Positions 2,378 through 31,289 of a stretch of 44,279 nt of DNA are shown here, piece by piece. The notes under the pieces are model-generated. The model was not told the origin of the DNA and did no database searches. It saw nothing but the letters and a program-made list of their open reading frames with translations. The position numbers were made by a program, and so were the translations under genes. The number at the start of each line of letters is the position of its first letter. Position 1 is the stretch's first letter. The stretch is from Bacillota bacterium (GTDB lineage: Bacteria; Bacillota; Clostridia; Peptostreptococcales; Anaerovoracaceae): contig JAFRKJ010000033.1 of assembly GCA_017431785.1 (NCBI GenBank), forward strand, positions 1-44,279. Reading direction: 5' to 3'.

Positions 2378-2617
2378 ATGAGAATCACCCCGGAAGCATT
2401 TATTGAAGAACAGAAGGAAAAGTCATATGAAGAATTGCTCTCAGTCCGTGACGAACTGATTGGAGTCATCAGAAAATTTGAAGCAGACGACGAACAGGAT
2501 CCGGAAGACGTTCTGGTCAGTCCTCTGCCGGATGGCAATTACTATTGCAACCTGAAACTGCTGGGAGGTCTTTGCAACCTGATTGCGGAAAAGTTTGGAG
2601 AGGAGAACGTCCGATGA
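2378..2617 (+). CDS. uncharacterised 79-residue acidic protein
   Basis: A small acidic protein, not recognised. The N-terminal half is predicted helical (EAFIEEQKEKSYEELLSVRDEL). The C-terminal half has a PLPDGNYYCNLKLLGGLCNL segment with two cysteines too far apart for a metal site of known type. The ATG at 2378 was chosen over the in-frame ATG at 2369 because GGAG at 2364-2367 lies 10 bases before the former and only 1 base before the latter. The stop overlaps the ATG of the nitroreductase (ATGA, 2614-2617), so the two are probably translationally coupled and functionally linked. Confidence 0.65.
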   Translation: MRITPEAFIEEQKEKSYEELLSVRDELIGVIRKFEADDEQDPEDVLVSPLPDGNYYCNLKLLGGLCNLIAEKFGEENVR

Positions 2618-3132
2618 ATGAAGTGATCAAAACAATAGAAGAGCGGAGAAGCATAAGAGCCTTTCGCGATGAGCAGATTACAAAAGAGCAGCTGGAGACG
2701 ATTCTGGAAGCAGGAAGCTACGCTCCCAGCGGCATGGGGCAGCAGGCGAGCATGATGGTTGCGGTGCAGGATTTGCAGATCATCGCGCAGATGAGCGGGA
2801 TGAATGCTCAGGTCATGGGTATGGACATCGATCCGTTCTACGGTGCGCCGACCGTCGTTGTGGTCTTTGCTGACAAGGACCGCCTGACATATGTCGAGGA
2901 CGGAAGCCTGGTGATTGGAACGATGATGCTCGCGGCAGCTTCGATTGGCGTCGACTCCTGCTGGATCCATCGGGCGAAGGAGACCTTTGAAACAGAAGAG
3001 GGCAAAGCGTTAAAGAAGCAGTGGGGCGTTCCCGAAAACTATGTCGGGATCGGAAACTGCATTCTCGGATACCGTGAAGGGGAGCTCCCGGATGCGGCGG
3101 AGAGAAAACCGGGCCGTATCGTATGCGTGTAG
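2614..3132 (+). CDS. nitroreductase-family FMN oxidoreductase
   Basis: FMN-dependent NAD(P)H oxidoreductase of the nitroreductase superfamily, 172 residues, at the short end of the family. The N-terminal motif IEERRSIRAFRDEQI is the family hallmark, with the RRSIR basic residues contacting the FMN phosphate. PSGMGQQ at about residues 38-44 and the later GVDSCWIHRAKE and GIGNCILGY segments follow the normal order of the fold. The ATG at 2614 overlaps the preceding stop by 4 bases and has GGAGAGGAG 8 or more bases upstream; the same frame stays open further upstream without a start signal. Such enzymes in anaerobes reduce quinones, enones or nitro compounds; the substrate here is unknown. A terminator follows at 3171. 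Confidence 0.85.
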   Translation: MNEVIKTIEERRSIRAFRDEQITKEQLETILEAGSYAPSGMGQQASMMVAVQDLQIIAQMSGMNAQVMGMDIDPFYGAPTVVVVFADKDRLTYVEDGSLVIGTMMLAAASIGVDSCWIHRAKETFETEEGKALKKQWGVPENYVGIGNCILGYREGELPDAAERKPGRIVCV

Positions 3133-3170
3133 CATTTTGATGCGGAGGCAAGCGACGTAGATATTAACAA

Positions 3171-3212
3171 ACAGCGCTGCAGAAATTGATCTGCAGCGCT
3201 GTTTTCGTCTTT
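3171..3212 (+). terminator. rho-independent terminator after nitroreductase
   Basis: A perfect 12-bp stem (3171-3182 with 3191-3202) has an 8-base loop and is followed by TTTCGTCTTT. It separates the nitroreductase operon from the hydrolase cluster. Confidence 0.85.
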
Positions 3213-3244
3213 ATGCAATTTTTACATAACAAGCGGACAATCAT

Positions 3245-3286
3245 GAATTTCTCATTTGCGTCTGGCCTATTTACAATAAAGTCAAG
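3245..3286 (+). promoter_or_regulatory. promoter element A (shared with elements at 7487 and 12698)
   Basis: GAATTT, then exactly 17 bases, then TATTTACAAT, then AAAGTCAAG. TACAAT (3272-3277) is a plausible -10 box, and TTCTCA (3249-3254), 17 bases upstream, a weak -35 box. The same arrangement with the same spacing occurs before the cupin gene and in the gap before the pyruvate:ferredoxin oxidoreductase. Being weak at -35, it probably needs an activator. Confidence 0.6.
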
Positions 3287-3360
3287 CAAAACAACACAAC
3301 ACTCTGATCAATCATCTATTACGAAGCAAAAGCACAGTAGAGACTAAGGAGGAAAGAGAT

Positions 3361-4377
3361 ATGTCAAACAAGCCATTAGCAGATTATGTGAAACTGCCGA
3401 CATTTGATGAATACAAAGAATGGTTCAAGGCGTTCGCAGATCTGAAGAGAGAAGACGGTATCGTCCAGGTCACATGGAAGACGAACGACGGTCCGATGCA
3501 CCACAGCGGTATGTCCCACAGAGCTGCCAGCCAGCTGACCAGAATGCTGTCGCTGGACTATGAGAATGAGATCATCATTTTCACACACATTGGCGACAAC
3601 TGGATGATCGAATCCGATGCCAATGGATGGGAGACTTATTCAAAGCTTCCGAGAGAAAGATTTGAACACCAGTACTTTGATGACACGAACCTGATCAAGA
3701 ACATGGTATTCGACCTCGATGTTCCGACCATCGGCGTTATGCCGGGACCCGGATTCCACTGGGATTCCGCTTTCCTCTGCGATGTGACGATCGTAACAGA
3801 AGATACCAAAATCGAAGTTCCGCACGCACAGGGTGGACTAGTGCCAGGAGACGGTATGGGACTGATGTTCCAGCACTATCTGGGAACCAAGCGCGGCAAC
3901 TACTACATGATGACGACCCGTCAGATCACTGCGCAGCAGCTGCTGGACGCCGGTGCCGTCAGTGAAGTGACGAAGAAGGGTGAAGCGGTCGAGCGTGCAT
4001 GGGAGATCGCGAGAATGTGGAAGACCATGCCGTATGAGAATAGAACGATTATGTCGAACCTGGCGAAGAGACCGCTGAAGAAACTGCTCATGGAAGATCT
4101 GAAGCTGCACACAGTCAGTGAACAGTATGCGTCAATGCTCCGTGTCGCTGCAGGCACGCTGGGTGACGAAAATTCAGAACAGCAGGACGAGAAGTACATC
4201 AGCCGCGTCAATGACTATCGCTATGCGACAACAGATATGGAACAGCCGATGACCAAGGAACTCTGGCGCGGAATGCCGAAGAGAGCCAAGGAATGGTGGG
4301 ACAAGGTCAACAGCGGCGAAATCGAAAATCCGTATGAATTCGAGCACAGCAATGAGCCGGATTGGTACAAGTTCTAG
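3361..4377 (+). CDS. crotonase-superfamily hydrolase, 6-oxocamphor hydrolase-like (paralogue 1)
   Basis: Crotonase-fold protein of 338 residues. A plain label would be enoyl-CoA hydratase, but the active site resembles 6-oxocamphor hydrolase (OCH), which cleaves a C-C bond in cyclic beta-diketones by water attack without CoA. From memory of OCH, its key residues are His122, His145, Asp154 and Glu244. Here the matching positions are His133 (GFHWDSAFLCD), His155 and Asp164 (PHAQGGLVPGDG, same 9-residue gap) and Glu254 (VSEQY). The following stretch, QHYLGTKRGNYYMMT, also parallels OCH (PHVLGSNRGRYFLLT). About 70 extra residues at the C-terminus, rich in Trp and acidic residues, are not typical of crotonases. 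AAGGAGGAAAGAG precedes the ATG. First gene of an operon with its paralogue and an SDR. Substrate unknown. Confidence 0.75.
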   Translation: MSNKPLADYVKLPTFDEYKEWFKAFADLKREDGIVQVTWKTNDGPMHHSGMSHRAASQLTRMLSLDYENEIIIFTHIGDNWMIESDANGWETYSKLPRERFEHQYFDDTNLIKNMVFDLDVPTIGVMPGPGFHWDSAFLCDVTIVTEDTKIEVPHAQGGLVPGDGMGLMFQHYLGTKRGNYYMMTTRQITAQQLLDAGAVSEVTKKGEAVERAWEIARMWKTMPYENRTIMSNLAKRPLKKLLMEDLKLHTVSEQYASMLRVAAGTLGDENSEQQDEKYISRVNDYRYATTDMEQPMTKELWRGMPKRAKEWWDKVNSGEIENPYEFEHSNEPDWYKF

Positions 4378-4406
4378 TAAAAGAGCAGATCGAAAGGAGA
4401 GTAGCA

Positions 4407-5426
4407 ATGGCACAGCCTTTAGCAGATTATGTGAAACTTCCGGAACTGGAAGAATATAAAGAATGGTTCAAAGACTTCGCGGATCTCTACAGAGAAGACG
4501 GAATCCTGCAGGTTACATGGAAGACCAATGACCATCAGATGTGTCACAGCGGCATGTCCCACAGAGCGGCAAGCCAGCTGACAAGATTCATCTCTATGGA
4601 CTATAAGAATGAAATCATCATCTTCACGCACTTGGGTGACAGCTGGATGACAGAATCCGATCCAAACGGATGGGAGACCTATTCAGAACTTCCGAAAGAA
4701 AGATTCCAGCACCAGTACTTCGATGACACAAACCTGATCAAGAACATGGTATTCGATCTGGCCGTACCGACGATCGGCGCCATCCCGGGCCCTGGATTCC
4801 ACTGGGATTCCGCAATGCTCTGCGATGTTACGCTCGCATCAGAAGATACCTGGATGGAGGTACCGCATGCACATGGCGGACTGGTACCGGGGGACGGCAT
4901 GGGTCTCATGGCACAGCATTACTTCGGGACGAAGAGAGGAACTTACTACATGATGACAGCCCGTCAGTGGACAGCGCAGCAGATGCTCGACTGGGGTATG
5001 ATCAGCGAGATCTGTAAGAAGGGTGAAGTTCTTGACCGTGCATGGGAGATCGCGAGAATGTGGAAGACCATGCCGTATGAGAACAGAACCATCATGTCTG
5101 ATCTGGCGAAGAGACCGCTGAAGAAACTCTTCGTAGACGATTTGAAACTCCACACAGTCAGCGAACAGTACGGATCGCTGCTCAGAATTGCTGCCGGTGA
5201 AATGGGAGATACCAACGCAGGACAGCAGGATGAGAAGTATATCAGCCAGACCAATGACTGGAGATACCAGAATGACTGGATGCAGCAGCCTCCGACGAGA
5301 GAAAGTTGGGCAGGCTTCCGGACCAAACCGTTCGAATGGTTCAAGGAAGTAGAAGCAGGCAACGCAGTCAATCCATTCGAGCTCAAAACGATTGAGCCGT
5401 ACAGACCGAAGAAGGAAGACGAGTAA
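4407..5426 (+). CDS. crotonase-superfamily hydrolase, 6-oxocamphor hydrolase-like (paralogue 2)
   Basis: A second OCH-like crotonase of 339 residues, clearly a tandem duplicate of the gene 30 bases upstream, with long identical stretches (for example QYFDDTNLIKNMVFDL). All four putative catalytic positions are kept: His132, His154, Asp163 (PHAHGGLVPGDG) and Glu253. Differences cluster in likely pocket residues (ITAQQLLDAGAVSEV versus WTAQQMLDWGMISEI) and in the C-terminal extension, so the pair may differ in substrate or stereochemistry, or form a hetero-oligomer. The ATG at 4407 was chosen because AAAGGAG lies 7 bases upstream; the frame is open to 4362 without a signal. It should act in the cytoplasm on the same pathway as its paralogue. 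Confidence 0.75.
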   Translation: MAQPLADYVKLPELEEYKEWFKDFADLYREDGILQVTWKTNDHQMCHSGMSHRAASQLTRFISMDYKNEIIIFTHLGDSWMTESDPNGWETYSELPKERFQHQYFDDTNLIKNMVFDLAVPTIGAIPGPGFHWDSAMLCDVTLASEDTWMEVPHAHGGLVPGDGMGLMAQHYFGTKRGTYYMMTARQWTAQQMLDWGMISEICKKGEVLDRAWEIARMWKTMPYENRTIMSDLAKRPLKKLFVDDLKLHTVSEQYGSLLRIAAGEMGDTNAGQQDEKYISQTNDWRYQNDWMQQPPTRESWAGFRTKPFEWFKEVEAGNAVNPFELKTIEPYRPKKEDE

Positions 5427-5492
5427 ACGATATCATGCAAAAGCATCAGAGATCGATGAAAAACATAGTTAAGAAACAAGGAGGAGATAACA

Positions 5493-6374
5493 ATGCCTAA
5501 AGTATATGACGGAAAACTGACAAACATGTTCGATATCAGTGGAAAGAAAGCAGCAATCTTTGGCGGCGCCGGCGGATTCGGCAAAGCCATCGCAGAAGGA
5601 TTCGCAGCCAATGGAGCAGATGTACTGATCCTTTCCAGAAGAGAAGAAGCGCTGAAGGCTGCGGCCGAGGAAATCAAGGCAGTCGCGGCAGAAGGTGTGC
5701 AGGTAAAATACTATGCATGCGATGCATGCGTTGAAGAAGAGGTCATCGCAGCAAGAGATTACATGGTAAGCGAAGAGGGTCTCGGCGGATGCGACATCCT
5801 GGTCAACACGCAGGGCCTGAACAAGAAGATGTTCTCGTGGGAGATTGACTCCGAGTATTGGGAGAAGATGCTGAAGACAAACATCACCTCCACTATGTAC
5901 ACCAACCGCTACTTCGGCAACTGGATGAAAGAGAATAACACAGAAGACGGCAAGGTCTATGATGAAGCGGAATTCACATCCGGCCAGCCGTCACCTTGTC
6001 AGGGCTACGGCAAAATCATCAACATGAGTTCTGTCCGCGGTATCAGAATCATCGGCAACGGCGGCATGGGCAACGTAGGATACTGCACAACGAAGGGCGC
6101 AGTCGAAATGCTGACCAAGTCCTTCGCGGCAGACTTGAGACCGAACATTCAGGTCAACGCTATCGGACCGAACATTACTTATACACCGATGATGGTTGGC
6201 CTTCTCCCGCCGGATGAAGAAACCAGAAACGGAATCGCAGCGCCGCTTCCTGCACAGAGAATCGGTTACGAGATCGACGTTGTCGGCGTCGCGCTGTTCC
6301 TCGCTTCAGCAGCTTCCGATATGGTTACAGCTACTACGATCTATCCGGACGGCGGACTGGTTGCAACATCATAA
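5493..6374 (+). CDS. short-chain dehydrogenase/reductase
   Basis: NAD(P)-dependent short-chain dehydrogenase of 293 residues, slightly longer than the usual 250. The Rossmann nucleotide motif GGAGGFG is at residues 24-30, preceded by a 17-residue leader (MPKVYDGKLTNMFDISG). The structural motif is NTQG instead of NNAG (105-108). Asn130 sits in KTNITS, Ser179/180 in INMSS, and the catalytic Tyr197 and Lys201 in YCTTK. An insertion of about 18 residues before the serine strand and a Gly/Asn-rich loop between Ser and Tyr are unusual. The C-terminus (TATTIYPDGGLVAT) is FabG-like. AGGAGGAG precedes the ATG, and the gene is 66 bases after the second hydrolase. It probably interconverts a ring ketone and alcohol in the same pathway. 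Confidence 0.85.
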   Translation: MPKVYDGKLTNMFDISGKKAAIFGGAGGFGKAIAEGFAANGADVLILSRREEALKAAAEEIKAVAAEGVQVKYYACDACVEEEVIAARDYMVSEEGLGGCDILVNTQGLNKKMFSWEIDSEYWEKMLKTNITSTMYTNRYFGNWMKENNTEDGKVYDEAEFTSGQPSPCQGYGKIINMSSVRGIRIIGNGGMGNVGYCTTKGAVEMLTKSFAADLRPNIQVNAIGPNITYTPMMVGLLPPDEETRNGIAAPLPAQRIGYEIDVVGVALFLASAASDMVTATTIYPDGGLVATS

Positions 6375-6414
6375 AGCAAAAGCAACAGAGAAATACAAAA
6401 CGCCTCTTTAATCA

Positions 6415-6448
6415 AAAGCCGGCTCTCATTACTCAGAGAGCCGGCTTT
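6415..6448 (+). terminator. bidirectional terminator between SDR and LysR genes
   Basis: A perfect 13-bp stem (6415-6427 with 6436-6448) has an 8-base loop. AAA on the left and TTT on the right let it serve both convergent genes. Confidence 0.85.
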
Positions 6449-6466
6449 GCTGTTAAGCAGTGAATC

Positions 6467-7363
6467 TTAAAGCGTGTTGTAAAAAATCTTGAAATCCTGC
6501 ACAAAGGTCTGCAGGGACTGTTTCGGATTCTTTGTTTTCCAGATCAGATTGAGAGGAACTACGCAATCCTCGTCAGAAATCGGAACCGTAATCAGGTCTT
6601 CTGCAATGAAACTCAGGTGCTGCGGAATCAGGAAAACGCCGATTCCTGCTTTTGCGTAAAACATTCCGGATTCGAAACTCGTCACTTCTTTGGCAACCTG
6701 CATGCGAAGATCCTTCTTCTCAAACAGACCCTTATGGAAATTAGCAGTGTAGGGGTTGTTTGTCTCGGAATAATTGATCAGCGGGTAGGTGGACAGCTCC
6801 TGCAGCGTGATGGACTCCCGGGTGCTGATGTCATGGCGAGGGGAGACCACAGCGAAGAGGTTGTCTTCATATACAACATCGCTGTCCAGATCCTTACTGA
6901 TAGATGGATCGGAACCAACGTGTGTTACGAAGGCGAGGTCCATCCGATCCTCCAGAACAGAGGCTGTCAGATCATCCAGATTGCCGGAGTCATAATCGAT
7001 CTCGATATTTGGATGCGCAGTCTGGAACCATTCGGCGAATTGGTAAAGGAATGGCCTGACGGCATATTCCAGAAAACCAATGGTCAGTGTGTCGCTGGAG
7101 GTATCTGCAGCATTTCTGATGTTGATCAGCGCGGAGTCGAAAGTGCTGGCCACCTCCTGCAGCTGCGTGGCGCACAGTTCGCCAAATTCAGTAAGCCGGA
7201 CGCTGTGGGTATCTCGTATGAATAGCTGCCCACCGAGAGTCTCCTCCAGGTCATGGATATGCCGACTGAGTACAGGCTGCGTGATATAGAGAAGATTTGC
7301 CGCCTTGCTGTAATTGAGATGTTCTGAGAGCACCAGAAATTCTTTGATTCTGTTGATATCCAT
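6467..7363 (-). CDS. LysR-family transcriptional regulator
   Basis: LysR-type regulator of 298 residues: an N-terminal winged helix (MDINRIKEFLVLSEHLNYSKAANLLYITQP, the classic LysR pattern) and a C-terminal effector-binding domain starting near residue 90 (DTLTIGFLEYAVRP). The ATG at 7363 (minus strand) is preceded by AAAGGAG at 9 bases; the frame stays open further upstream without a second site. It is divergent from the cupin-transporter operon and convergent with the hydrolase operon, the standard position for the regulator of a catabolic island. The inducer would be the substrate or an intermediate. Binding sites probably lie in the 7364-7606 gap, where a dyad is visible at 7398. Confidence 0.92.
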   Translation of the reverse strand: MDINRIKEFLVLSEHLNYSKAANLLYITQPVLSRHIHDLEETLGGQLFIRDTHSVRLTEFGELCATQLQEVASTFDSALINIRNAADTSSDTLTIGFLEYAVRPFLYQFAEWFQTAHPNIEIDYDSGNLDDLTASVLEDRMDLAFVTHVGSDPSISKDLDSDVVYEDNLFAVVSPRHDISTRESITLQELSTYPLINYSETNNPYTANFHKGLFEKKDLRMQVAKEVTSFESGMFYAKAGIGVFLIPQHLSFIAEDLITVPISDEDCVVPLNLIWKTKNPKQSLQTFVQDFKIFYNTL

Positions 7364-7397
7364 GAAATCGCTCCTTTCAAGCAAAGCAATTGTCAGT

Positions 7398-7419
7398 GTT
7401 GTAACAATATTTTAACAAC
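7398..7419. promoter_or_regulatory. candidate LysR operator dyad
   Basis: An imperfect inverted repeat of GTTGTAA and TTAACAAC arms is separated by an AT-rich centre, containing the T-N11-A pattern typical of LysR boxes. It sits 35-56 bases upstream of the LysR start codon in the divergent intergenic region, a normal place for autoregulation. Confidence 0.45.
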
Positions 7420-7486
7420 TCAAAGTAGTGAAATCAATGGTTTTAACTTCTGCTATTCCAAATGAACATAACCAGAGTAGGGAACG

Positions 7487-7528
7487 GAATTTCCTTTCTG
7501 TTTTACCGGTATTTACAATGAAATCAAG
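7487..7528 (+). promoter_or_regulatory. promoter element B (shared element)
   Basis: GAATTT, 17 bases, TATTTACAAT, then GAAATCAAG. It is identical in layout to the element at 3245, with the same outer words and the same spacer length but a different spacer sequence. TACAAT at 7514-7519 would be the -10 box of the cupin-MFS-MFS-MDR operon, 88 bases before the cupin ATG. Confidence 0.6.
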
Positions 7529-7606
7529 AGATGAGATCAAGTGTTTTGTAACCGTTAACAGAAAAATCTGAAAATAGTCAACAAAGAGTTGAAAGGAGAA
7601 TCAATC

Positions 7607-7957
7607 ATGAATAAAGTAGAAGTAAACAAGTCTGAAGCATATAACGCACCTGGACATTTTGACATGAGAGCCATCCGTCTGCACGGACCGGCCAATGACT
7701 GTCAGGCTTTTTCACTGGGAATGTCCCATTTCCTGCCAGGCGGCGGCACAGCATACGTTGAACCGCCGGTAGAACTGGTCTATTTCATCCTGGACGGCGA
7801 GCTTACCGTACTGGACAAGGACGATAATGTGATCGAAGTTCTCGGAAAGTATGATTCCATGCACTTCGCAGCAGGCGAGGGAAAGCAGATTCTGAACAAG
7901 ACCAACTACATTACCACCATGCTGGTCATCGCAAGTCCTCTGCCGAAGATGGACTAA
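7607..7957 (+). CDS. small single-domain cupin protein
   Basis: A single cupin barrel of 116 residues. The centre (GGGTAYVEPPVELVYFILDGELTVLDKDDNVIEVLGKYDSMHF) follows the cupin 1 pattern, but the usual first motif G(X)5HXH is replaced: the His pair is absent and Glu residues (VEPPVELVYF) take its place. The second motif keeps His at DSMHF. Metal binding is therefore uncertain. The ATG at 7607 has AAAGGAG at 8 bases. It heads the transporter operon divergent from LysR. In similar clusters small cupins act as isomerases, ligand binders or ring-modifying enzymes; no specific function can be assigned. Confidence 0.75.
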   Translation: MNKVEVNKSEAYNAPGHFDMRAIRLHGPANDCQAFSLGMSHFLPGGGTAYVEPPVELVYFILDGELTVLDKDDNVIEVLGKYDSMHFAAGEGKQILNKTNYITTMLVIASPLPKMD

Positions 7958-8012
7958 GAAAAAGCTTACGAAAAAGCAAGTCAAATAAATGACAGAAAGG
8001 AAAGGTGTCATT

Positions 8013-9296
8013 ATGCAGACTACAAAGAAAACAGGAATGTACAACTTCGGCGCGAGAGGCTGGTCGGTCGTCGGTTTCCAGATTGTCTGGCTGTTCTTCA
8101 TGACAGGCATGACTGTTGACGGACTGAACATCATCGTGCCGGGAATCGCAGCGTTCAGAGGCTGGGATCCGAATACGATTTTATCATTTTCTACGCCTGC
8201 ATCCATTATCGCGCTGATTCTGTGCGCACTGTGGGGCGGATTCATCATCAAGGTCGGCGCCAAAAAAACGATGCTCATCACCATGGTGGCCGCAGGTCTG
8301 GCAACGATCTTCTACGGGAATGCATCGACGATCCCACTCTATTTCATCGCACTGGTGCTGATGGTCACACTGATCAACGCTTTTGCAATCAATGTCGGTA
8401 TGGCAATCACAACGAACTGGTTCCCGACGAAAAAAGGCGTTGTTATGGGTGTCGCCACCATCGGTATGAACCTGGCAAGCGCTTTGATCAGCCAGATCCT
8501 CAATCAGCTCTCAGGACACTGGGGTATTTCGGGAGCAATCACCATAATGGGATGTGTCATTCTGTTTGTTGCGCTTCTGACGGCGATTTTCGTCAAGGAA
8601 AAGCCGGAAGACGCCGGATGCTTCCCGGATAATGACCCGGAAGTTGCGAAGCTGATCGAGGCAGAAGAGGAACGGACGAAAGATGAAAGGCCTGCAGGAT
8701 ATAAGCAAGCCCTGAAGAACAAGTACGTATGGCTCTTCGGTATCGCTTACGGCTTCTTCGGGATGGCCACTGTCGGTATCATGTCACAGCTTGTCGGCTT
8801 CTTCATGGAAACCAGAGGATGGGAACTCCAGACTGCGCTGAACACGGTCACCATCGCAGCGGTAATCGGTATGGCCGGATCTGTTATGTGGGGAACCATA
8901 GACCAGAAAATCGGCACCAAGAAAACGTCAACCATTTTCGGCATCTGGTATTGCATCGGCATCCTGCTGCTGCTTGCGCCGAACACCTTCATTATGTGGA
9001 TCGGCATCGTGATGCTGGGCGCTGGAATCGGCGGCAATGGTAACTTCCCGCCATCGATGACAGCACTGGCCTTCGGACGGAAGGACTTCCCGACCTGCTA
9101 TGCATGCGTTAACACAATCGTAGGTATCGTCAGATCCTGTTCCTTCATCATTCTGGCAATCCTGCGCGGATTCACCGCCGGCTATGCAGTACCGTACACA
9201 TTCTTCGCAATCGTAGCGCTGATTGGCGGCCTGATGTTCATCTTCATCCACGTCAAGGTAGCAGTCGGAAATGAAGACTACGACCATGAAGGATAA
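8013..9296 (+). CDS. MFS transporter 1
   Basis: Major facilitator superfamily permease of 427 residues with about twelve hydrophobic segments in two halves joined by a charged loop (residues 205-225, rich in Glu and Asp). After TM2 the GGFIIKVGAKKTML loop is a variant of MFS motif A. GAGIGGNGNFPPSMTALAFG in the second half suggests a substrate-lining helix. The architecture resembles organic-anion (OFA-type) or carboxylate carriers, but specificity cannot be told. The ATG at 8013 follows GGAAAGG by 7 bases and was preferred over the open frame beginning at 7989. It follows the cupin by 55 bases and probably imports the cluster substrate. Confidence 0.85.
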   Translation: MQTTKKTGMYNFGARGWSVVGFQIVWLFFMTGMTVDGLNIIVPGIAAFRGWDPNTILSFSTPASIIALILCALWGGFIIKVGAKKTMLITMVAAGLATIFYGNASTIPLYFIALVLMVTLINAFAINVGMAITTNWFPTKKGVVMGVATIGMNLASALISQILNQLSGHWGISGAITIMGCVILFVALLTAIFVKEKPEDAGCFPDNDPEVAKLIEAEEERTKDERPAGYKQALKNKYVWLFGIAYGFFGMATVGIMSQLVGFFMETRGWELQTALNTVTIAAVIGMAGSVMWGTIDQKIGTKKTSTIFGIWYCIGILLLLAPNTFIMWIGIVMLGAGIGGNGNFPPSMTALAFGRKDFPTCYACVNTIVGIVRSCSFIILAILRGFTAGYAVPYTFFAIVALIGGLMFIFIHVKVAVGNEDYDHEG

Positions 9297-9334
9297 ACGC
9301 AGAATATATTGACATTTATAATATCTCCAAACTG

Positions 9335-9364
9335 ACGCCGACTGCCGGGGCTGGCAGCCGGCGT
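9335..9364 (+). terminator. intra-operon stem-loop (attenuator or processing site)
   Basis: A 12-bp GC-rich stem with one mismatch (9335-9346 with 9353-9364) has loop GGGGCT. It is followed only by TTGC, not a T-run, so it is a poor terminator. It lies between the two transporter genes, 21 bases before the second ATG, and may stabilise the upstream message or lower expression of the second transporter. Confidence 0.5.
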
Positions 9365-9385
9365 TTGCATAAAAAGGAGCAGTTC

Positions 9386-10606
9386 ATGAGCGCAAATTAT
9401 AGTAAAACAAAAATCAAAATCGGAATCTACGCAATGGCAGTCCTCATGATGGGAATCGTCGGTGTGTCCGGATCCCTGACGGTAATCGGGGCTCAGTTTT
9501 CTTCTGCATCCCAGTCGATGATCCAGAGCATCATCTCTATTCCGTGTTTGGCGGTCCTGCCGACAACGCTTCTTTCCGGAAAGCTGATGGGGAACATGCC
9601 TAAGAAAACGCTGGGGATCATCGGGATGGTGATCTTCCTGGTCGGAGGCGTTGTTCCGGTCTGTTTGACTTCCCTGCCGGTCATCTTGGTCTTTCGCGGG
9701 ATCTTCGGCATAGGCGTGGGCATTGTGCAGGCAGTGGCTTCCGCCCTTGTAGCCGAGAACTTCATCGGTCCGGAGCGGGAAGAGGTGCAGGGGACGATGA
9801 CCTCTGCACAGATGCTGGGTTGCGCAGTCATGGTATTTGCCGGAGGCTGGCTCGGCGATATCGCGTGGAACGCGTCGTTCCTTGTGCACGGGATCGCCAT
9901 CCTGTCGCTGATCATCGCATTCGTTTGTCTGCCGTTGGTCAGGGCACCGAAGAAGGACAGCACGGACGTTGTTGCTTTTGCGGAAGGCGGCGAAGCAGCC
10001 GGCGGCGGGCGGGGGAAGACTCGTCTGAACAAAAGCTCCTGGAGCTGGGCCGGCATCACATTTCTCCTGTTCATCGGCGTGCAGGTGTACACGGTCTATA
10101 TTTCCTACGTGCTTAGCGAGAAATCGATCGGCGGCGCGGCGGAGTCCGGGGCGACAGTGGCAGTTGCCTGTATCGGCGGCTTTATCATGGGGATCCTCTA
10201 TGGGAAACTGGCCGGAAGAGCAGGGAATCTGACCTTCGCAACAGGGCTGTTCGTCATGGCGCTCTCCTATCTGATCCTGGCTCTTGCCGGAAGCATGACA
10301 GTGATCTACCTCGGTGGCTTTGTCTACGGCATCGCCATGGCAATCTGTATGCCGGCGGCCTTCGTCAACACGGCGAATTCCGTAGACGCCTATTCCTCCG
10401 CAATGGCGCTTTCAATCACCATGTGCGCACAGAACCTCGGCCAGTTCATCTGCCCATATATTATGAATTTTATAACAGGAATAACAAGCAGCGCACAGCC
10501 TAGTACGCTGACCTACCTGCTGGCAGCGATATTGCTTGCCGCCATGGGCATACCTGCGGTGTTCTGGGGCATACAGAAAAGTAGACAAAAAGGAGAGACA
10601 ACATGA
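9386..10606 (+). CDS. MFS transporter 2
   Basis: A second major facilitator permease, 406 residues, about twelve membrane segments with a central Gly-rich loop (FAEGGEAAGGGRGKTRLNKSS, about residues 198-218). The GKLMGNMPKKTLGIIG loop after TM2 is a motif-A variant, and the GIFGIGVGIVQAVASALVAE region around TM4 is typical of drug/solute antiporters. It is not a close copy of transporter 1, so the operon may carry an importer plus an exporter, or carriers for two compounds. AAGGAG lies 6 bases before the ATG. Its stop overlaps the next start by 4 bases (ATGA at 10603-10606), coupling it to the MDR oxidoreductase. Confidence 0.85.
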   Translation: MSANYSKTKIKIGIYAMAVLMMGIVGVSGSLTVIGAQFSSASQSMIQSIISIPCLAVLPTTLLSGKLMGNMPKKTLGIIGMVIFLVGGVVPVCLTSLPVILVFRGIFGIGVGIVQAVASALVAENFIGPEREEVQGTMTSAQMLGCAVMVFAGGWLGDIAWNASFLVHGIAILSLIIAFVCLPLVRAPKKDSTDVVAFAEGGEAAGGGRGKTRLNKSSWSWAGITFLLFIGVQVYTVYISYVLSEKSIGGAAESGATVAVACIGGFIMGILYGKLAGRAGNLTFATGLFVMALSYLILALAGSMTVIYLGGFVYGIAMAICMPAAFVNTANSVDAYSSAMALSITMCAQNLGQFICPYIMNFITGITSSAQPSTLTYLLAAILLAAMGIPAVFWGIQKSRQKGETT

Positions 10607-11592
10607 AAGCAGCATATATCAATTCGTTTGGAGGACCAGAACAAATACAATACGGAGATATGCCGAAGCCAGTTCCGGCGGCGGACGAGATCCTTGTCCG
10701 CAACAGGATCATCGGCGTGGGCAAACCTGACTTCCTCGTCAGAAGCGGCAATGACCCATATCTGGCCAAGTCGTTGCCCGGCCTCATCATCGGTAATGAG
10801 AGTGCAGGAATTGCCGAGGAGGTCGGCCCGGAGGTGAAAGGCATCAAACCGGGCGACAAGGTCGCAGTTCTGAATGCAACAGGATGCGGATCTCACGCGG
10901 AATACTCTTGCTCAAAAGAACAATATGTCATCAAACTGCCTGATGGCGTCGAGCCTGAAATGGTTCCCGGCGTATTGAATCTGCAGGTGGCGTACGCATT
11001 GCTGTTCGATGCGGGAAGACTCGGGGAAGGGGACAGTATGTATATCTCCGGCGCCGCAGGTGGAATCGGAACCACCATGGTGCAGATGGCAAAAACATCT
11101 GGAATCAGGGTAATCGCATCTGCATCAAATGAAGAAAAGTGCGCCGTTCTGGAGCAGCTCGGTGCAGATACGGTCTTCAATTACAAGGAAAAGGACGAAA
11201 AGGAGATCGTCCTCAGCGCAACGAATGGCGTTGGCGCTGATGTCATCTACGACCAGACAGCAGGAAAAGAGCTTGCAGGGAAATTTGATTATCTGGCAGA
11301 TTTCGGTCAGATCATTCTGTACAACTGGCTTAATGGTTCACCTGAATTACCGCAGCTTGAGACGATTGTCAAGCGCGCCTGGCATGCACAGGCGATTCGG
11401 TCCTTTTCATTCCACGTCTATGATAATAAATTGGAGAGACGGCTGTCGAACGCCGCGAAATGCTTCGACATGATTCGACGCGGCAATGTCAGACCGTATG
11501 TCTGCAAAGACTTCCCGCTGGAAGAGGCCCGCGCCGCCCATGAACTTCTGGACAGCGGCAGCGCCATCGGCAAAATCATCATGCACCCATAG
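10603..11592 (+). CDS. zinc-independent MDR oxidoreductase (quinone/enone reductase-like)
   Basis: Medium-chain reductase of the quinone oxidoreductase type, 329 residues. The N-terminal GroES-like domain begins MKAAYINSFGGPEQIQYGD and lacks the structural zinc cysteine cluster, so it is a zinc-free member. The Rossmann motif AAGGIG is near residues 150-155. SASNEEKCAVLEQLGADTVFNYK is the usual strand after it, with Ser and Asn suggesting NADPH preference. The family reduces quinones or alpha,beta-unsaturated ketones. Being last in the transporter operon and translationally coupled to it, it probably performs a double-bond reduction on the imported compound before ring opening. A terminator follows. 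Confidence 0.85.
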   Translation: MKAAYINSFGGPEQIQYGDMPKPVPAADEILVRNRIIGVGKPDFLVRSGNDPYLAKSLPGLIIGNESAGIAEEVGPEVKGIKPGDKVAVLNATGCGSHAEYSCSKEQYVIKLPDGVEPEMVPGVLNLQVAYALLFDAGRLGEGDSMYISGAAGGIGTTMVQMAKTSGIRVIASASNEEKCAVLEQLGADTVFNYKEKDEKEIVLSATNGVGADVIYDQTAGKELAGKFDYLADFGQIILYNWLNGSPELPQLETIVKRAWHAQAIRSFSFHVYDNKLERRLSNAAKCFDMIRRGNVRPYVCKDFPLEEARAAHELLDSGSAIGKIIMHP

Positions 11593-11612
11593 TGAATCAG
11601 AACAGACATTAC

Positions 11613-11648
11613 AAAACCGACCGGCAGTCGAGCTGCCGGTCGGTTTTT
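11613..11648 (+). terminator. bidirectional terminator between MDR and ADC-like genes
   Basis: A perfect 15-bp stem (11613-11627 with 11633-11647) has loop TCGAG. AAAA on the left and TTTTT on the right serve both convergent genes. Confidence 0.9.
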
Positions 11649-11686
11649 GAATCATGTATATTATTTAGGAGTGATTATGGTTTCCT

Positions 11687-12550
11687 TTAACGGAGGATGT
11701 AGCAGGTGTAGTAAACACCCGGATCCTTATAAGTGAAGTGTCTTGTGGCAAGGATACGCTTTGGCTGAAGCTTTGCAAGCCCTGCGCCGATGCGCCATCC
11801 ATGAGGCCAATCTTCCCAGGTCGTAGCTGTCCACTTGATGCTGCCCATGCCCCATTCACTTTCGGAGGCGCCCAGTTCATAAGGATAGTCTTCCGGCTTT
11901 TCAAAAGCAGGGAGAACGACAGGGTAAGCACAGTCCGGCGTGCAGTAGTTGTCCTCGTATGGCTCGTCCTTTTCTCTGACCTTCGGGATGTACTTGTACT
12001 GGAACTTGCCCTGAGCACGTCCTTCGACCTTCTTGACTTCTTCGATATCTTCCTCGGAGGCCTTGATGTTCGTGTCGACAGTCATCTCCAGGAACGGCTT
12101 GCCCCATGCTGATGCCTTGCAGGAGTACTTTCCGTCGAGTTTCTCGATGAGCGGAATCTCTGCGAAATACTTGGCATAGCCCATGGAATCACGTCCGCCG
12201 ATGATTGGATCGGCATGGTTTTCGAACATGGTCAAAATAAGGTCTCCATCCATGTCATCACGCTCGCCCTTGAAGTGAACAGGGCAGCTGATGTTGATAA
12301 GAGTATATCCTTTGCCGGCCATCCAGCTGCAGCCGAAGAATTCGCAGAACTTGATGTTGACATATGGCTCCAGAAGTTCATAGCATTCCGGAATCATACT
12401 TTCAAGAACTTCGCGATCTGTTTCATACGTAAGGGAAATCACGTTAATATCTGCGGGTGAATGAAGGGAAGTATCATTGATACCGTGTTCATTCTCGCCA
12501 CCGATGAATACCGGCATAAAATACGGTTTCTTTTCAAACTTCAGACTCAT
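11687..12550 (-). CDS. acetoacetate decarboxylase-fold enzyme
   Basis: Acetoacetate decarboxylase (ADC) superfamily protein of 287 residues. The region around the Schiff-base lysine is recognisable: IIGGRDSMGYAKYFAEI (residues 116-131) with Lys127 where classical ADC has Lys-Lys. The second lysine, which lowers the pKa of the first in the clostridial enzyme, is Tyr here. This favours a variant chemistry (imine-based decarboxylation, aldol, dehydration or cyclisation) as seen in divergent family members. An acidic/basic stretch near residues 165-195 (EEDIEEVKKVEGRAQGKFQYK) and conserved WTATTWEDWPHGWRIG follow. GGAGGA precedes the ATG at 12550 on the minus strand. It is convergent with the MDR gene and transcribed away from the oxidoreductase gene; likely a late step of the island pathway. 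Confidence 0.8.
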   Translation of the reverse strand: MSLKFEKKPYFMPVFIGGENEHGINDTSLHSPADINVISLTYETDREVLESMIPECYELLEPYVNIKFCEFFGCSWMAGKGYTLINISCPVHFKGERDDMDGDLILTMFENHADPIIGGRDSMGYAKYFAEIPLIEKLDGKYSCKASAWGKPFLEMTVDTNIKASEEDIEEVKKVEGRAQGKFQYKYIPKVREKDEPYEDNYCTPDCAYPVVLPAFEKPEDYPYELGASESEWGMGSIKWTATTWEDWPHGWRIGAGLAKLQPKRILATRHFTYKDPGVYYTCYILR

Positions 12551-21577: not shown

Positions 21578-22846
21578 TTAATATTCGATTTCTCCGCCCA
21601 ACAAGTCGAAGTCCTTGTAAAAGTCCGGGTAGGATTTCGTCACAGCAATTGGATTGGAGATATACACCGGCTCACGGCAAAGGCAGGATGCGATGGCTGC
21701 CGACATGGCGATGCGGTGATCCCCGTAGCTGTCTACTGTTCCACCTTCCAGGAAGGCTTTGCCGGTGAAAGAGAGCCAGTCTCCGCCATAAGAAACATCT
21801 GCATCCAGATTATAGAGTACAGAATAAATCGCTTTTAGACGATTTGACTCTTTGAACTTGAGCCGCTCGGCGTGTGTAATCATAGAAGTCCCTTCCGCAA
21901 AGGACATGAGAACGGCGAGGATCGGTGTCAGGTCCGGCGTCTGCGCAACATCCACATCCATGCCCTTGAGAATGGATGCCTTGGAGCGGATGGTGACTGT
22001 GCCATCCACCTGGGGCTGTATATCCAGATCTGCGCCCATCTCCGCGAGAATGCGGAGGATCTCCTTGTCCCACTGGCAGGATTCCAGACGAAGACCTGTG
22101 ACCGTGATGTCCCCGCTCAAGGAACCTGCGGCCAGCCAGAATGCGGCATTCGACCAATCGCCGTCCAGGGCGATTCCGGGTTTTTCTCGGTATACCTGAT
22201 TGCCGGGAATCTCATAATGGAAGAATCCATCTTCTGTTTGGGAAACCTGCACTTCTATATTGAAAGACTTCAGCACATCCAGCGTCATATCAACGTATCC
22301 GGCTGATTCCAGTTCGGTTGTGAGTGTAATGCTGCTGTCGCCGTCAACGAGGGGCAGGGCGAAGAGCAGTCCCGTGATAAACTGGGAGCTCACATTGCCG
22401 GCAAGAACATAATCACCGGCGACGAGTCTTCCGGACACCTCGCAGATTTCCTTGAAGCGGTCTGTATTCTTATTAGAGCCCATCCGGAATCGGCAGCCAT
22501 GCCGCTCCATCTCTTCCTTTAAAGGAGAGAGCGGTCTGTCAGGCAGCCGTCCCGTTCCGAGAAAAGTGGCGTGCTCTTTGAGCGCCATGACGACAGGAAG
22601 CATGAAGCGCAGTGTGGAGCCGCTTTCCCGGCACTCCAGATATGGAGTGTTCTTATCGAGCTGGCCGATGCAGGCCATTGTTGCCTCAATATCATCAGAA
22701 AAAGCAGGGATCTCAATACCGCCTTCCAATGCACTGCCCTGCAGTTCGGAAAGTTTCCTTGCGATGAGAAGCCGGTGGGCGTGTGATTTTGACGGCATGG
22801 CCTCAATCGTTCCGGTCAATTTACGCGGTGTGATTTTGATCTCCAT
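21578..22846 (-). CDS. aroA: 3-phosphoshikimate 1-carboxyvinyltransferase (EPSP synthase)
   Basis: Enzyme of the shikimate pathway joining shikimate-3-phosphate with phosphoenolpyruvate; 422 residues, full length. The N-terminal substrate loop is MPSKSHAHRLLIA (Lys and Arg contacts kept). The PEP-binding region reads RESGSTLRFMLP where most enzymes have GNAGTAxR, a divergent form also found in some Clostridia. GDWSNAAFWLAAG and the C-terminal DHRIAMSAAIA motif are normal. It lies 4 bases after aroB on the minus strand, so the two form one transcript. The changed PEP loop could alter glyphosate response, but this cannot be judged from sequence alone. Confidence 0.94.
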   Translation of the reverse strand: MEIKITPRKLTGTIEAMPSKSHAHRLLIARKLSELQGSALEGGIEIPAFSDDIEATMACIGQLDKNTPYLECRESGSTLRFMLPVVMALKEHATFLGTGRLPDRPLSPLKEEMERHGCRFRMGSNKNTDRFKEICEVSGRLVAGDYVLAGNVSSQFITGLLFALPLVDGDSSITLTTELESAGYVDMTLDVLKSFNIEVQVSQTEDGFFHYEIPGNQVYREKPGIALDGDWSNAAFWLAAGSLSGDITVTGLRLESCQWDKEILRILAEMGADLDIQPQVDGTVTIRSKASILKGMDVDVAQTPDLTPILAVLMSFAEGTSMITHAERLKFKESNRLKAIYSVLYNLDADVSYGGDWLSFTGKAFLEGGTVDSYGDHRIAMSAAIASCLCREPVYISNPIAVTKSYPDFYKDFDLLGGEIEY

Positions 22847-22850
22847 GATT

Positions 22851-23948
22851 CTATCTCCCTTGTGCTTTTGTCAGTCCGGATGCAATGAAGACCTCCAGGT
22901 CGCTGATCGGCAGTTCCTTCATCGCGCAGGTGCCGGGCTGGTCGGGATAAATGATGGTTATTCTATCTGCCTCGTGTTTTTTGTCATCTTTTGCTGCGGC
23001 AGCGAGGTCCGCTGCAGTGCAATCTGTATAAACAGGATATGCAAAGGCATCAATGGCACTTTTGATAAAGCCTGCCATTGGCGTTCTGCTCCATCCGCGT
23101 TCATCTGCAGCCAGTGCAGTCAGATACATTCCTGTCATCACGGCGAAGCCGTGGGGAATGGTGTAATTGCTGCACTTTTCGATTGCGTGTCCAATCGTGT
23201 GGCCGAAGTTGAGCAGCCTGCGGCTGCCTCCCTCGCGTTCGTCTTCTTCCACGATTTCCTTCTTGACCTGTATTGCCTTTGCAATGGCAGCAGGAAGTCC
23301 TTCGCTGATGACGTCGAAGATGCTGGTGTCACCGATAAAACCGGCTTTGATGACTTCGGCAAGACCATTCAACAGTTCTGTTTTATTCAGTGTTTCGAGT
23401 GCCTTTGGATCTGCGATAACCAGCGATGGCTGCCAGAACGTGCCAAGCATATTCTTGCCCGCATCTGTGTTGACCCCCGTCTTACCGCCTACGGACGAGT
23501 CCGCCATGGCGAGAAGTGTCGTCGGGATCTGTATATACGGAATGCCCCGCATATAGATGGAGGCTGCAAACCCCGCCAGATCTCCGCACACACCGCCGCC
23601 TAGAGCGATGATGAAATCATTCCGTCCGAAGTGATTCTCAGACAGAAACCCGCACAAATCTTCCGCAGTGCGCAGTGACTTGCTCTTTTCGCCTGGATTG
23701 AAGACGTAGACATGAACCGTGTAACCGGCTTCCAGAAGTCCGGTGAGGAGCGGATGCGGTTTCTGACCATATAATTGGCATACTGTTTTATCACACACAA
23801 CACAGCATTTACGTGGCGCCGAATTGGCAGCACGCCCGTCTTCCACCGGCGGAAGAACTTTCGAAATGTGTTCCGCAGCGGTCGCCAGAAGCCCCTCTTC
23901 TAAGAGGATCTCATATGCTTTTGAAGTGTGGATGGTGATAGTTTCCAT
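22851..23948 (-). CDS. aroB: 3-dehydroquinate synthase
   Basis: Second enzyme of the shikimate pathway, NAD- and metal-dependent, 365 residues. The nucleotide motif GGGVCGDLAGFAASIYMRGI and TTLLAMADSSVGGKTGVN are diagnostic. Metal ligands are expected at Glu in LAEVIKAG, His in NFGHTIGHAIE and His in YTIPHGFAV, all present. An insertion (PPVEDGRAANSAPRKCC) near residues 30-48 is not standard. AGGAGAAAACCC precedes the ATG at 23948. First gene of the aroB-aroA operon; the promoter must lie in the 115-base gap shared with the divergent NUDIX gene. Confidence 0.95.
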   Translation of the reverse strand: METITIHTSKAYEILLEEGLLATAAEHISKVLPPVEDGRAANSAPRKCCVVCDKTVCQLYGQKPHPLLTGLLEAGYTVHVYVFNPGEKSKSLRTAEDLCGFLSENHFGRNDFIIALGGGVCGDLAGFAASIYMRGIPYIQIPTTLLAMADSSVGGKTGVNTDAGKNMLGTFWQPSLVIADPKALETLNKTELLNGLAEVIKAGFIGDTSIFDVISEGLPAAIAKAIQVKKEIVEEDEREGGSRRLLNFGHTIGHAIEKCSNYTIPHGFAVMTGMYLTALAADERGWSRTPMAGFIKSAIDAFAYPVYTDCTAADLAAAAKDDKKHEADRITIIYPDQPGTCAMKELPISDLEVFIASGLTKAQGR

Positions 23949-30378: not shown

Positions 30379-30440
30379 AACTCTGTATGAAAGAGTTAAT
30401 ATTTTAACAATCTTAACGATTGACTAAGGAGGATAATATT

Positions 30441-31289
30441 ATGAAAAAAATTGGTGTAATGGGAACAGGTACTATGGGATCCGGCATCATTCAGGTATGC
30501 GCAGCAGCTGGCTATGATGTAGTTGTCAGAAGCAGCAAGCAGGAGTACATTGACGGTGCGCTGGCTAAGATCGACAAGAACCTGTCCAAGATGGTCTCCA
30601 GAGAGAAGATTACTGAGGAAGACAAAGCGGCCACACTGGGACGCATCTCCGGCGGCACCACCTTTGATGTTTTGGCGGATTGCGATCTGATCATCGAGTC
30701 CTCCACAGAAAACATGGATAAGAAAAAAGAGCTGTTCGCAGAGCTGGACAAGGTTTGCAGGGACGATGCTATCCTGGCAACCAACACTTCCGCACTCTCC
30801 ATCACTGAGATCGCAGCTGTTACATCCAGACCTTCACAGGTCATCGGTATGCACTTCTTCAACCCAGTTCCTGCAATGAAGCTGGTTGAAGTCGTTAAGG
30901 GCATCGCAACTTCCGATGAAGTTAAGGATGCAGTAGTCGCAGCAACAGAGAGCCTGAAGAAGACTCCGGTAGAAGTAGCTGAGGCTCCGGGATTCGTTGT
31001 TAACAGAGTTCTGATCCCGATGATCAATGAAGCAGTCGGCATTCTGGCAGACGGTGTTGCTTCCGCAGAAGGTATCGATACAGCAATGAAGCTTGGTGCA
31101 AATCACCCAATGGGACCTCTCGCACTGGGCGATCTGATCGGACTGGATGTTTGTCTGGCAATCATGGAGACACTGTTCAATGAATACGGTGATCCGAAGT
31201 ACAGACCAAATCCGCTGCTGAGAAAGATGGTAAGAGCCAACAAGCTGGGCATGAAGACTGGCGAAGGTTTCTTCGTTTACAACAAATAA
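30441..31289 (+). CDS. hbd: 3-hydroxybutyryl-CoA dehydrogenase
   Basis: NAD(P)-dependent 3-hydroxyacyl-CoA dehydrogenase of 282 residues, the exact length of clostridial Hbd. It reduces acetoacetyl-CoA to 3-hydroxybutyryl-CoA in butyrate formation. The Rossmann motif is GTGTMGSGI (residues 7-15). The catalytic His is in [17 protein letters not shown] near 140, and [14 protein letters not shown] starts the C-terminal helical domain. AAGGAGG lies 9 bases before the ATG at 30441. It stands alone between its own promoter and terminator, unlike the common bcs operon of crt, bcd, etfBA and hbd, so the other butyrate genes must be elsewhere. Confidence 0.95.

Follow-up and report, generated by a model that had tools for sequence, protein, structure and literature searches.

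An island around two 6-oxocamphor-hydrolase-like crotonases in a Bacillota bacterium: a candidate variant of anaerobic phloroglucinol-type ring cleavage

Contig JAFRKJ010000033.1 of the Bacillota bacterium assembly GCA_017431785.1 (Anaerovoracaceae), analysed here over all its 44,279 nucleotides (the window; contig C78 of a genome of 2.72 Mb in 96 contigs, 81% complete and with 5% contamination), carries at positions 2614-12550 an island made of the genes NTR, OCH1, OCH2, SDR, LysR, cupin, MFS1, MFS2, MDR and ADC-fold. OCH1 and OCH2 encode tandem crotonase-fold proteins that resemble 6-oxocamphor hydrolase (OCH). On balance, we favour reading the island as an OCH-fold variant of the anaerobic cleavage of phloroglucinol-type rings; its activities, their order and its substrate are what we infer from homology, residue conservation and gene association. 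The module is real and conserved and, as far as the open-access literature goes, undescribed. It appears to be a gene set of gut and rumen bacteria that would open the phloroglucinol-like rings of plant polyphenols with a kind of enzyme unlike the known one. If this is true, two unrelated folds have evolved in anaerobes for the opening of phloroglucinol-type rings.

OCH1 and OCH2 as putative C-C hydrolases

Both proteins pass the superfamily model PF00378 (45 bits for OCH1 and 43 bits for OCH2; cut-off 27). Their nearest relative in the PDB according to phmmer is the beta-diketone hydrolase Alr4455 (2j5g; E 8e-31 for OCH1 and 9e-32 for OCH2), followed by 6-oxocamphor hydrolase itself (1o8u; E 3e-28 and 4e-29), whereas the other crotonases of the PDB are far weaker (E 1e-5 and 3e-8). 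In hand-counted alignments, H45, H122, H145, D154 and E244 of 1o8u, which we take to be the catalytic residues of 6-oxocamphor hydrolase, correspond to H53, H133, H155, D164 and E254 of OCH1. None of the five varies in any of the 71 family members compared, and 69 of the 338 columns are invariant overall; these counts omit 13 of the 84 OCH-family gene calls, which are shorter than 300 aa or contain X. The original prediction, made from the sequence alone, had already read OCH-like His, His, Asp and Glu residues in both crotonases and placed both hydrolases close to OCH, and the alignments and the PDB comparison bear it out on both points. The solved OCH sequence 1szo has an Ala at position 122, which is consistent with an active-site mutant.

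OCH1 and OCH2 could also be ordinary CoA-dependent crotonases, either enoyl-CoA hydratases or ring hydrolases of the BadI/Oah kind, as they pass the Pfam model ECH_1 and as CoA enzymes are encoded nearby in relatives. This is however very improbable. None of the best 25 of the 44 (OCH1) or 48 (OCH2) matched NCBIfam crotonase models exceeds its cut-off, and all stay far below it, the best scores being 58.6 and 64.8 against a cut-off of 354. Furthermore, the PDB bit scores favour beta-diketone hydrolases (100-114 bits, against at most 37 for CoA crotonases) and the His/Asp/Glu set is invariant. In a quick tree, the OCH1 clade (28 rows, SH-aLRT 98) and the OCH2 clade (25 rows, SH-aLRT 94) are separate; deeper rows attach by long branches and their placement is unsure.

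Layout of the island and proposed route

The features of the island are as follows.

2614..3132, plus strand: NTR, nitroreductase-family protein (PF00881), a separate upstream unit and a probable associate of the island
3169..3204, plus strand: terminator-like hairpin with a 15 bp stem, between NTR and OCH1 (pattern match only)
3361..4377, plus strand: OCH1, crotonase-fold, 6-oxocamphor/beta-diketone-hydrolase-like putative C-C hydrolase, 338 aa (best PDB matches 2j5g/1o8u)
4407..5426, plus strand: OCH2, paralogue of OCH1 in a clade of its own, 339 aa (PDB comparison, tree)
5493..6374, plus strand: SDR, proposed ring (keto) reductase (PF13561)
6467..7363, minus strand: LysR regulator, divergent from the cupin unit (PF03466/PF00126)
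7607..7957, plus strand: cupin-like protein (weak Cupin_3; relatives match Cupin_2)
8013..9296, plus strand: MFS carrier 1 (PF07690)
9386..10606, plus strand: MFS carrier 2 (PF07690)
10603..11592, plus strand: MDR, PIG3/quinone-oxidoreductase-like (TIGR02824, 205 bits, under the cut-off of 297)
11687..12550, minus strand: ADC-fold protein (PF06314, E 1e-26; PDB 3cmb, E 8e-32)

The tandem crotonases, SDR, MDR, ADC-fold protein, cupin, two MFS carriers and LysR regulator that had been predicted are thus all present at 3361-12550. OCH1-OCH2-SDR and cupin-MFS1-MFS2-MDR seem to form two units of the same orientation, LysR being divergent from the second one; the ATG of OCH2 at 4407 is preceded by GAAAGGAG. 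Two near relatives have the same order of genes: L003 (OCH1 99% identical) and L004 (97%).

In the proposed route, the SDR, perhaps with the cupin, would reduce or tautomerise a ring of the 1,3,5-trihydroxybenzene type to a cyclic 1,3-dione. OCH1, OCH2 or both would then hydrolyse a C-C bond by a CoA-free retro-Claisen reaction at the His/Asp/Glu site, as their family and residues suggest. In the full clusters found in relatives, a HAD-like (3HAD) dehydrogenase oxidising a beta-hydroxy acid, a BKACE, a thiolase and a CoA transferase could, judging from their families, lead on to acetoacetyl-CoA and acetyl-CoA. In the layout of the window, the ADC-fold decarboxylase may act instead, or such enzymes may be supplied from elsewhere in the genome. 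The ADC-fold protein, a possible beta-keto-acid decarboxylase, has a lysine opposite the first Lys of the GFPKK stretch of 3c8w, presumably the catalytic Schiff-base lysine, and its gene is also found in L003, L004, L025, L026 and L045. Its place might be between two hydrolyses, as the decarboxylase of a beta-keto acid; this is the least certain part of the route.

No Pfam model matches the window cupin at 1e-3 (Cupin_3, E 0.006), and no PDB entry does so under E 0.3; three of its relatives match Cupin_2 (4e-11 to 1e-14). No phloroglucinol reductase by name is seen among the best 60 of the 138 PDB matches of the SDR. Resorcinol is a conceivable substrate, although no resorcinol-reductase-like gene was noticed, no search being aimed at one. 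SDRs of the window type give 23 matches in 22 of 51 OCH carriers. Seven lie beside OCH in clusters counted below; for the other 16, ten loci were read and each holds another gene of the pathway: an adjacent cupin in five (L212, L214-L217), HAD, BKACE or thiolase in five (L211, L212, L213, L219, L220) and OCH in L218.

Downstream of the island come PFOR, by reading, and then mostly housekeeping genes. A 3-hydroxyacyl-CoA dehydrogenase-like gene (PF02737, PF00725) is found at 30420-31289, 18 kb from the island and among unrelated genes; at 21578-23948, EPSP synthase and 3-dehydroquinate synthase genes are adjacent on the minus strand, with no more shikimate genes noted nearby. The regions upstream of OCH1 (3205-3360) and of the cupin (7364-7606) have a TATTTACAATRAARTCAAG stretch in common, which is statistically weak. 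As a common promoter element TATTTACAATRAARTCAAG was not retained: its score of 39 compares with a mean of 22.7 and a maximum of 41 in 300 shuffles, and the upstream regions of ADC and PFOR give comparable scores of 39 and 41, leaving it a hint only.

Partner genes in relatives and the known phloroglucinol pathway

Scanning of one genome per species over 84,980 species, which detects close relatives only, yields 68 OCH loci. The record titles are mainly those of Oscillospiraceae, Lachnospiraceae and other Clostridia; many give no source, and those that do chiefly indicate animal gut or rumen. Carriers include Flavonifractor plautii ATCC 29863, Pseudoflavonifractor phocaeensis, Coprococcus catus and Olsenella profusa; Eubacterium ramulus is absent from the 68. 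The family is rare: it is found in one of 391 genomes of the class (that of the window itself) and, in the family to which Flavonifractor An112 belongs, in 21 of 250 genomes, of which 18 are strong. According to tree and blast labels, both clades occur together in 18 of 47 examined carriers, including F. plautii, whose OCH1 is broken by an assembly gap; in seven of these 18 (G409, G410, G413, G416, G418, G419 and G430), the two genes are found on separate contigs. The remaining carriers have a single clade, and many of them are draft metagenome-assembled genomes, yet the named strain Olsenella profusa also has one copy.

More distant OCH homologues (35-37% identity) occur elsewhere in the family, at L197:3369-6541 (G461) and L198:7420-8280 (G475); in L197 one of them directly precedes NuoE- and NuoF-like genes. 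OCH1 of a Clostridiales Family XIII genome (L028:352-4465) is flanked by an alcohol-dehydrogenase-like gene and a gene of the Old-Yellow/2-enoate-reductase type (PF00724).

Partner genes were counted in the 68 sources with a called OCH gene, the window included (L070, without a called OCH, was excluded from 69); gene calls in the loci of relatives were chosen by hexamer score, and Pfam/NCBIfam checks of the partner families were made on examples. BKACE is found in 21 sources, HAD in 18, thiolase in 16, CtfA in 12, CtfB in 13, a second type of CoA transferase in 14, a cupin in 10 and a window-like SDR in 17. Of the 68, 33 have one or more of BKACE, HAD, thiolase and CoA transferase. As a yardstick for chance, 19 carriers have 62 BKACE matches, about three per genome of about 3 Mb, and we estimate that a stretch of 20 kb holds a BKACE by chance about 2% of the time.

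The fullest arrangement is seen in Flavonifractor. In An112, the order is LysR, MFS, DUF362, a 94-aa protein, 3HAD-like, MFS, CtfA, CtfB, thiolase, OCH2, OCH1, BKACE and a phosphotriesterase (PTE)-like lactonase, and the cluster has no DPGC, the ring-opening cyclase of the known phloroglucinol pathway. F. plautii ATCC 29863 (L057) keeps this order through BKACE, without the PTE-like gene. Four further genomes (L192-L195; contigs of 52 kb to 4.3 Mb) hold the OCH-BKACE-HAD-CtfAB-thiolase set in two arrangements, L194 having an SDR and a cupin in addition, and L068 adds phosphotransacylase and kinase genes, as does, by reading, L058. Phosphotriesterase-family lactonase-like genes edge several OCH clusters (L013:12026-12961, L006:17636-18616). 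A DUF362 protein and a protein of about 86-104 aa travel together in OCH and DPGC-type clusters (L013:2380-3925, L120:13009-13919); the small protein, in its L013 copy, has no Pfam or NCBIfam match.

The absence of a CoA ligase or transferase from the cluster, noted in the original prediction, holds for the window but not for many relatives. Because any CoA transferase is found in 26 of the 68 loci, the proposal that the chemistry runs on free acids until late fails as a general rule, as it does with the 33 loci holding BKACE, HAD, thiolase or CoA transferase.

According to the accessible part of PMC10470551, the anaerobic phloroglucinol pathway of Clostridium scatologenes consists of PGR, the Mn-dependent cyclase-family enzyme DPGC, the dehydrogenase TfD and the BKACE-family TAL, with a thiolase, and a DPGC cluster is reported for F. 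plautii (NZ_CP015406.2) and E. ramulus. By contrast, no An112-type DPGC was found in the draft of F. plautii ATCC 29863 (at least 211 contigs). The DPGC cluster of An112 (L122) holds a cupin, an SDR, a 3HAD, the cyclase, a BKACE and an MFS carrier, and a similar set occurs in Coprococcus catus (L123). Near relatives of the window (L120, L121) hold a divergent cyclase (37% identical to that of An112) with 3HAD, NTR, BKACE, thiolase and MFS; L120 also carries the DUF362 pair. Several families recur between the two kinds of clusters: relatives of the cupin adjoin the SDR in the PGR position of DPGC clusters, the family of MFS carrier 1 (C3) is found in both, the window NTR shares 72.5% identity with its counterpart in L120 (genome G009), and one genome has a cupin 94% identical between its OCH and DPGC loci. 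The recurrence of the SDR and cupin families, together with the BKACE, 3HAD-like, thiolase and CoA transferase genes added by relatives, agrees with the originally proposed logic of reduction followed by hydrolysis, as for phloroglucinol. The SDRs, HADs and BKACEs of the OCH and DPGC modules are nevertheless separate lineages, the SDRs being 26-36%, the HADs 29-36% and the BKACEs 37-50% identical.

Given these shared partner families, the OCH module could simply act on free (dihydro)phloroglucinol in the place of DPGC, as a non-homologous substitute, all the more so as DPGC of the An112 type is missing in 12 of the 18 strong OCH genomes of the 250-genome sample. This seems rather unlikely to us. 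Six of the 18 hold both, and the association is if anything positive (both 6, OCH alone 12, DPGC alone 34; Fisher p 0.048), so that mutual exclusion of the two modules is not seen; this table leaves out the weak G461, G475 and G648 and assumes one identical set of 250 genomes for both scans, whose listed ids overlap. DPGC of the An112 type is present in 17 of 47 OCH carriers, and G009 and G010, negative for this type, have a divergent cyclase near BKACE. Since both modules coexist in some genomes, their substrates probably differ, OCH probably acting on a substituted phloroglucinol and not on the free compound. No PF04199 match (the DPGC cyclase family) is found among the ten scanned cluster genes of the window; the sole one in genome G000 is from a different contig, where the 17 kb that were read gave no call of a BKACE, a HAD or an SDR.

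Several observations weigh against an OCH-fold variant of phloroglucinol cleavage. No BKACE, HAD, thiolase or CoA transferase is found in 35 of the 68 OCH sources, and several OCH genes stand alone amid apparent housekeeping genes. The window and two near relatives lack BKACE, thiolase and CoA transferase beside OCH; the genome of the window has two BKACE matches, both on other contigs, one with an internal stop and the other with a called piece 41% identical to the BKACE of L068. Nine Flavonifractor-type loci (L010, L011, L013, L015, L016, L017, L038, L043 and L057) have neither a window-like SDR nor a cupin, and the window SDR is just 27-29% identical to SDRs in the PGR position. The substrates described for OCH are diones, either bicyclic or 2,2-disubstituted, whereas diones of the phloroglucinol type are enolised. 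Lastly, Olsenella profusa has an OCH2/SDR/cupin/ADC/MMSDH cluster, yet its genome has no BKACE match. The lone OCH1 loci were also considered as a guide to the substrate, without success: their neighbours are, by reading, ribosomal-protein, ABC-transporter and other housekeeping genes, and for this reason only co-occurrence is informative.

The Olsenella cluster (L045, 4830-11008; cupin-SDR-ADC-MMSDH-transporter-OCH2) includes a CoA-acylating (methyl)malonate-semialdehyde dehydrogenase (MMSDH; 533 bits, cut-off 448). ADC with a malonate-semialdehyde-type dehydrogenase, in a genome without BKACE, points to a different tail of the pathway. It could even be that the window-type (ADC) layout, seen in the window, L003, L004, L025 and L026, opens a diketone derived from a cyclic polyol or a quinate-like acid: the SDR would oxidise, the cupin isomerise, OCH cleave and ADC decarboxylate, a malonate-semialdehyde-type dehydrogenase ending clusters like L045. 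The best NCBIfam names of the SDR, glucose and gluconate dehydrogenases, would suit such a substrate. We consider this unlikely, as the SDR of a phloroglucinol cluster draws identical sugar-dehydrogenase names and as the SDRs of the L006 and L035 clusters, which hold BKACE and HAD, share 70% identity with that of the window.

Degradation of a terpenoid (bicyclic) diketone, as for 6-oxocamphor, was the other route contemplated in the original prediction. The sequence family and the active-site residues do agree with 6-oxocamphor hydrolase, but no terpenoid-related gene was seen in the window or in the relatives read, the partners are polyketide-acid enzymes and the titles with a source are chiefly from animal gut or rumen; it is the explanation to which we give least credence. 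The original prediction is therefore partly supported: the enzymes and the general chemistry were right, the view on CoA was too narrow and the terpenoid route finds no sign among the neighbours read.

Candidate substrate and comparison with known systems

Catechin-derived diphenylpropan-2-ols are a tentative candidate for the substituted phloroglucinol. From what could be consulted of PMC9281540, PMC8145700 and PMC11887054, F. plautii opens the A ring of diphenylpropan-2-ol, yielding 5-aryl-4-hydroxyvaleric acid and valerolactone; the consulted part of PMC13057332 credits the valeric acid step to F. plautii together with E. lenta, and a review (PMC6359708, in part) describes A-ring cleavage as two consecutive reverse Claisen reactions. 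The two OCH paralogues, the acetoacetate-type CoA transferase and the thiolase encoded by F. plautii would fit such a fission. The OCH2-OCH1 cluster may be the gut-bacterial A-ring fission system for these compounds, although we hold this with little confidence.

In this scheme, derived on paper, two retro-Claisen hydrolyses would convert 1-(dihydroxyphenyl)-3-(2,4,6-trihydroxyphenyl)propan-2-ol to 4-hydroxy-5-arylvaleric acid (and valerolactone) and acetoacetate, which would then be used by CtfAB and thiolase. In window-type clusters, decarboxylation by ADC after the first hydrolysis and before the second would lead to the same acid, with CO2 and acetone. The PTE-family lactonase-like gene that edges several other Flavonifractor clusters might process the lactone.

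No gene for catechin A-ring fission was found in the open-access literature, as far as the partial texts go; in the same way, the consulted parts of papers on a flavone reductase, on an in-silico flavonoid survey and on Catenibacillus contain nothing on such genes. PMC10619559 has F. plautii KCTC5970 among 37 cultures tested, and the word valerolactone is absent from the part available. Phenyl-gamma-valerolactones are prominent human metabolites of flavan-3-ols and their production differs between people (PMC9281540 and PMC10841028, both in part). If the proposal is true, the formation of phenyl-gamma-valerolactones from tea and cocoa flavanols could be traced to named genes of a cultured species; an activity without an assigned gene would become directly testable, with a marker for metagenomes.

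Compared with 6-oxocamphor hydrolase (1o8u/1szo) and Alr4455 (2j5g/2j5s), the closest solved proteins by sequence, OCH1 and OCH2 have the same five active-site residues but are about 75-80 residues longer and occur in anaerobes, and many of their relatives cluster with polyketide-acid cleavage genes. No paper joining 6-oxocamphor hydrolase to an anaerobic crotonase was found in the open-access literature. Compared with the C. scatologenes pathway, as described in the same accessible part, OCH relatives have the same SDR, 3HAD-like, BKACE, thiolase, CoA-transferase and MFS families, the likeness of the cupins coming from our own reading of L122-L124, whereas the putative ring opener is an OCH-type crotonase, often in two paralogues, instead of the Mn-dependent cyclase-family DPGC. 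As for the A-ring fission of F. plautii, the activity is known from the partial sources above and a genome of that species holds the OCH2-OCH1 cluster (L057), from which we infer the link between gene and activity.

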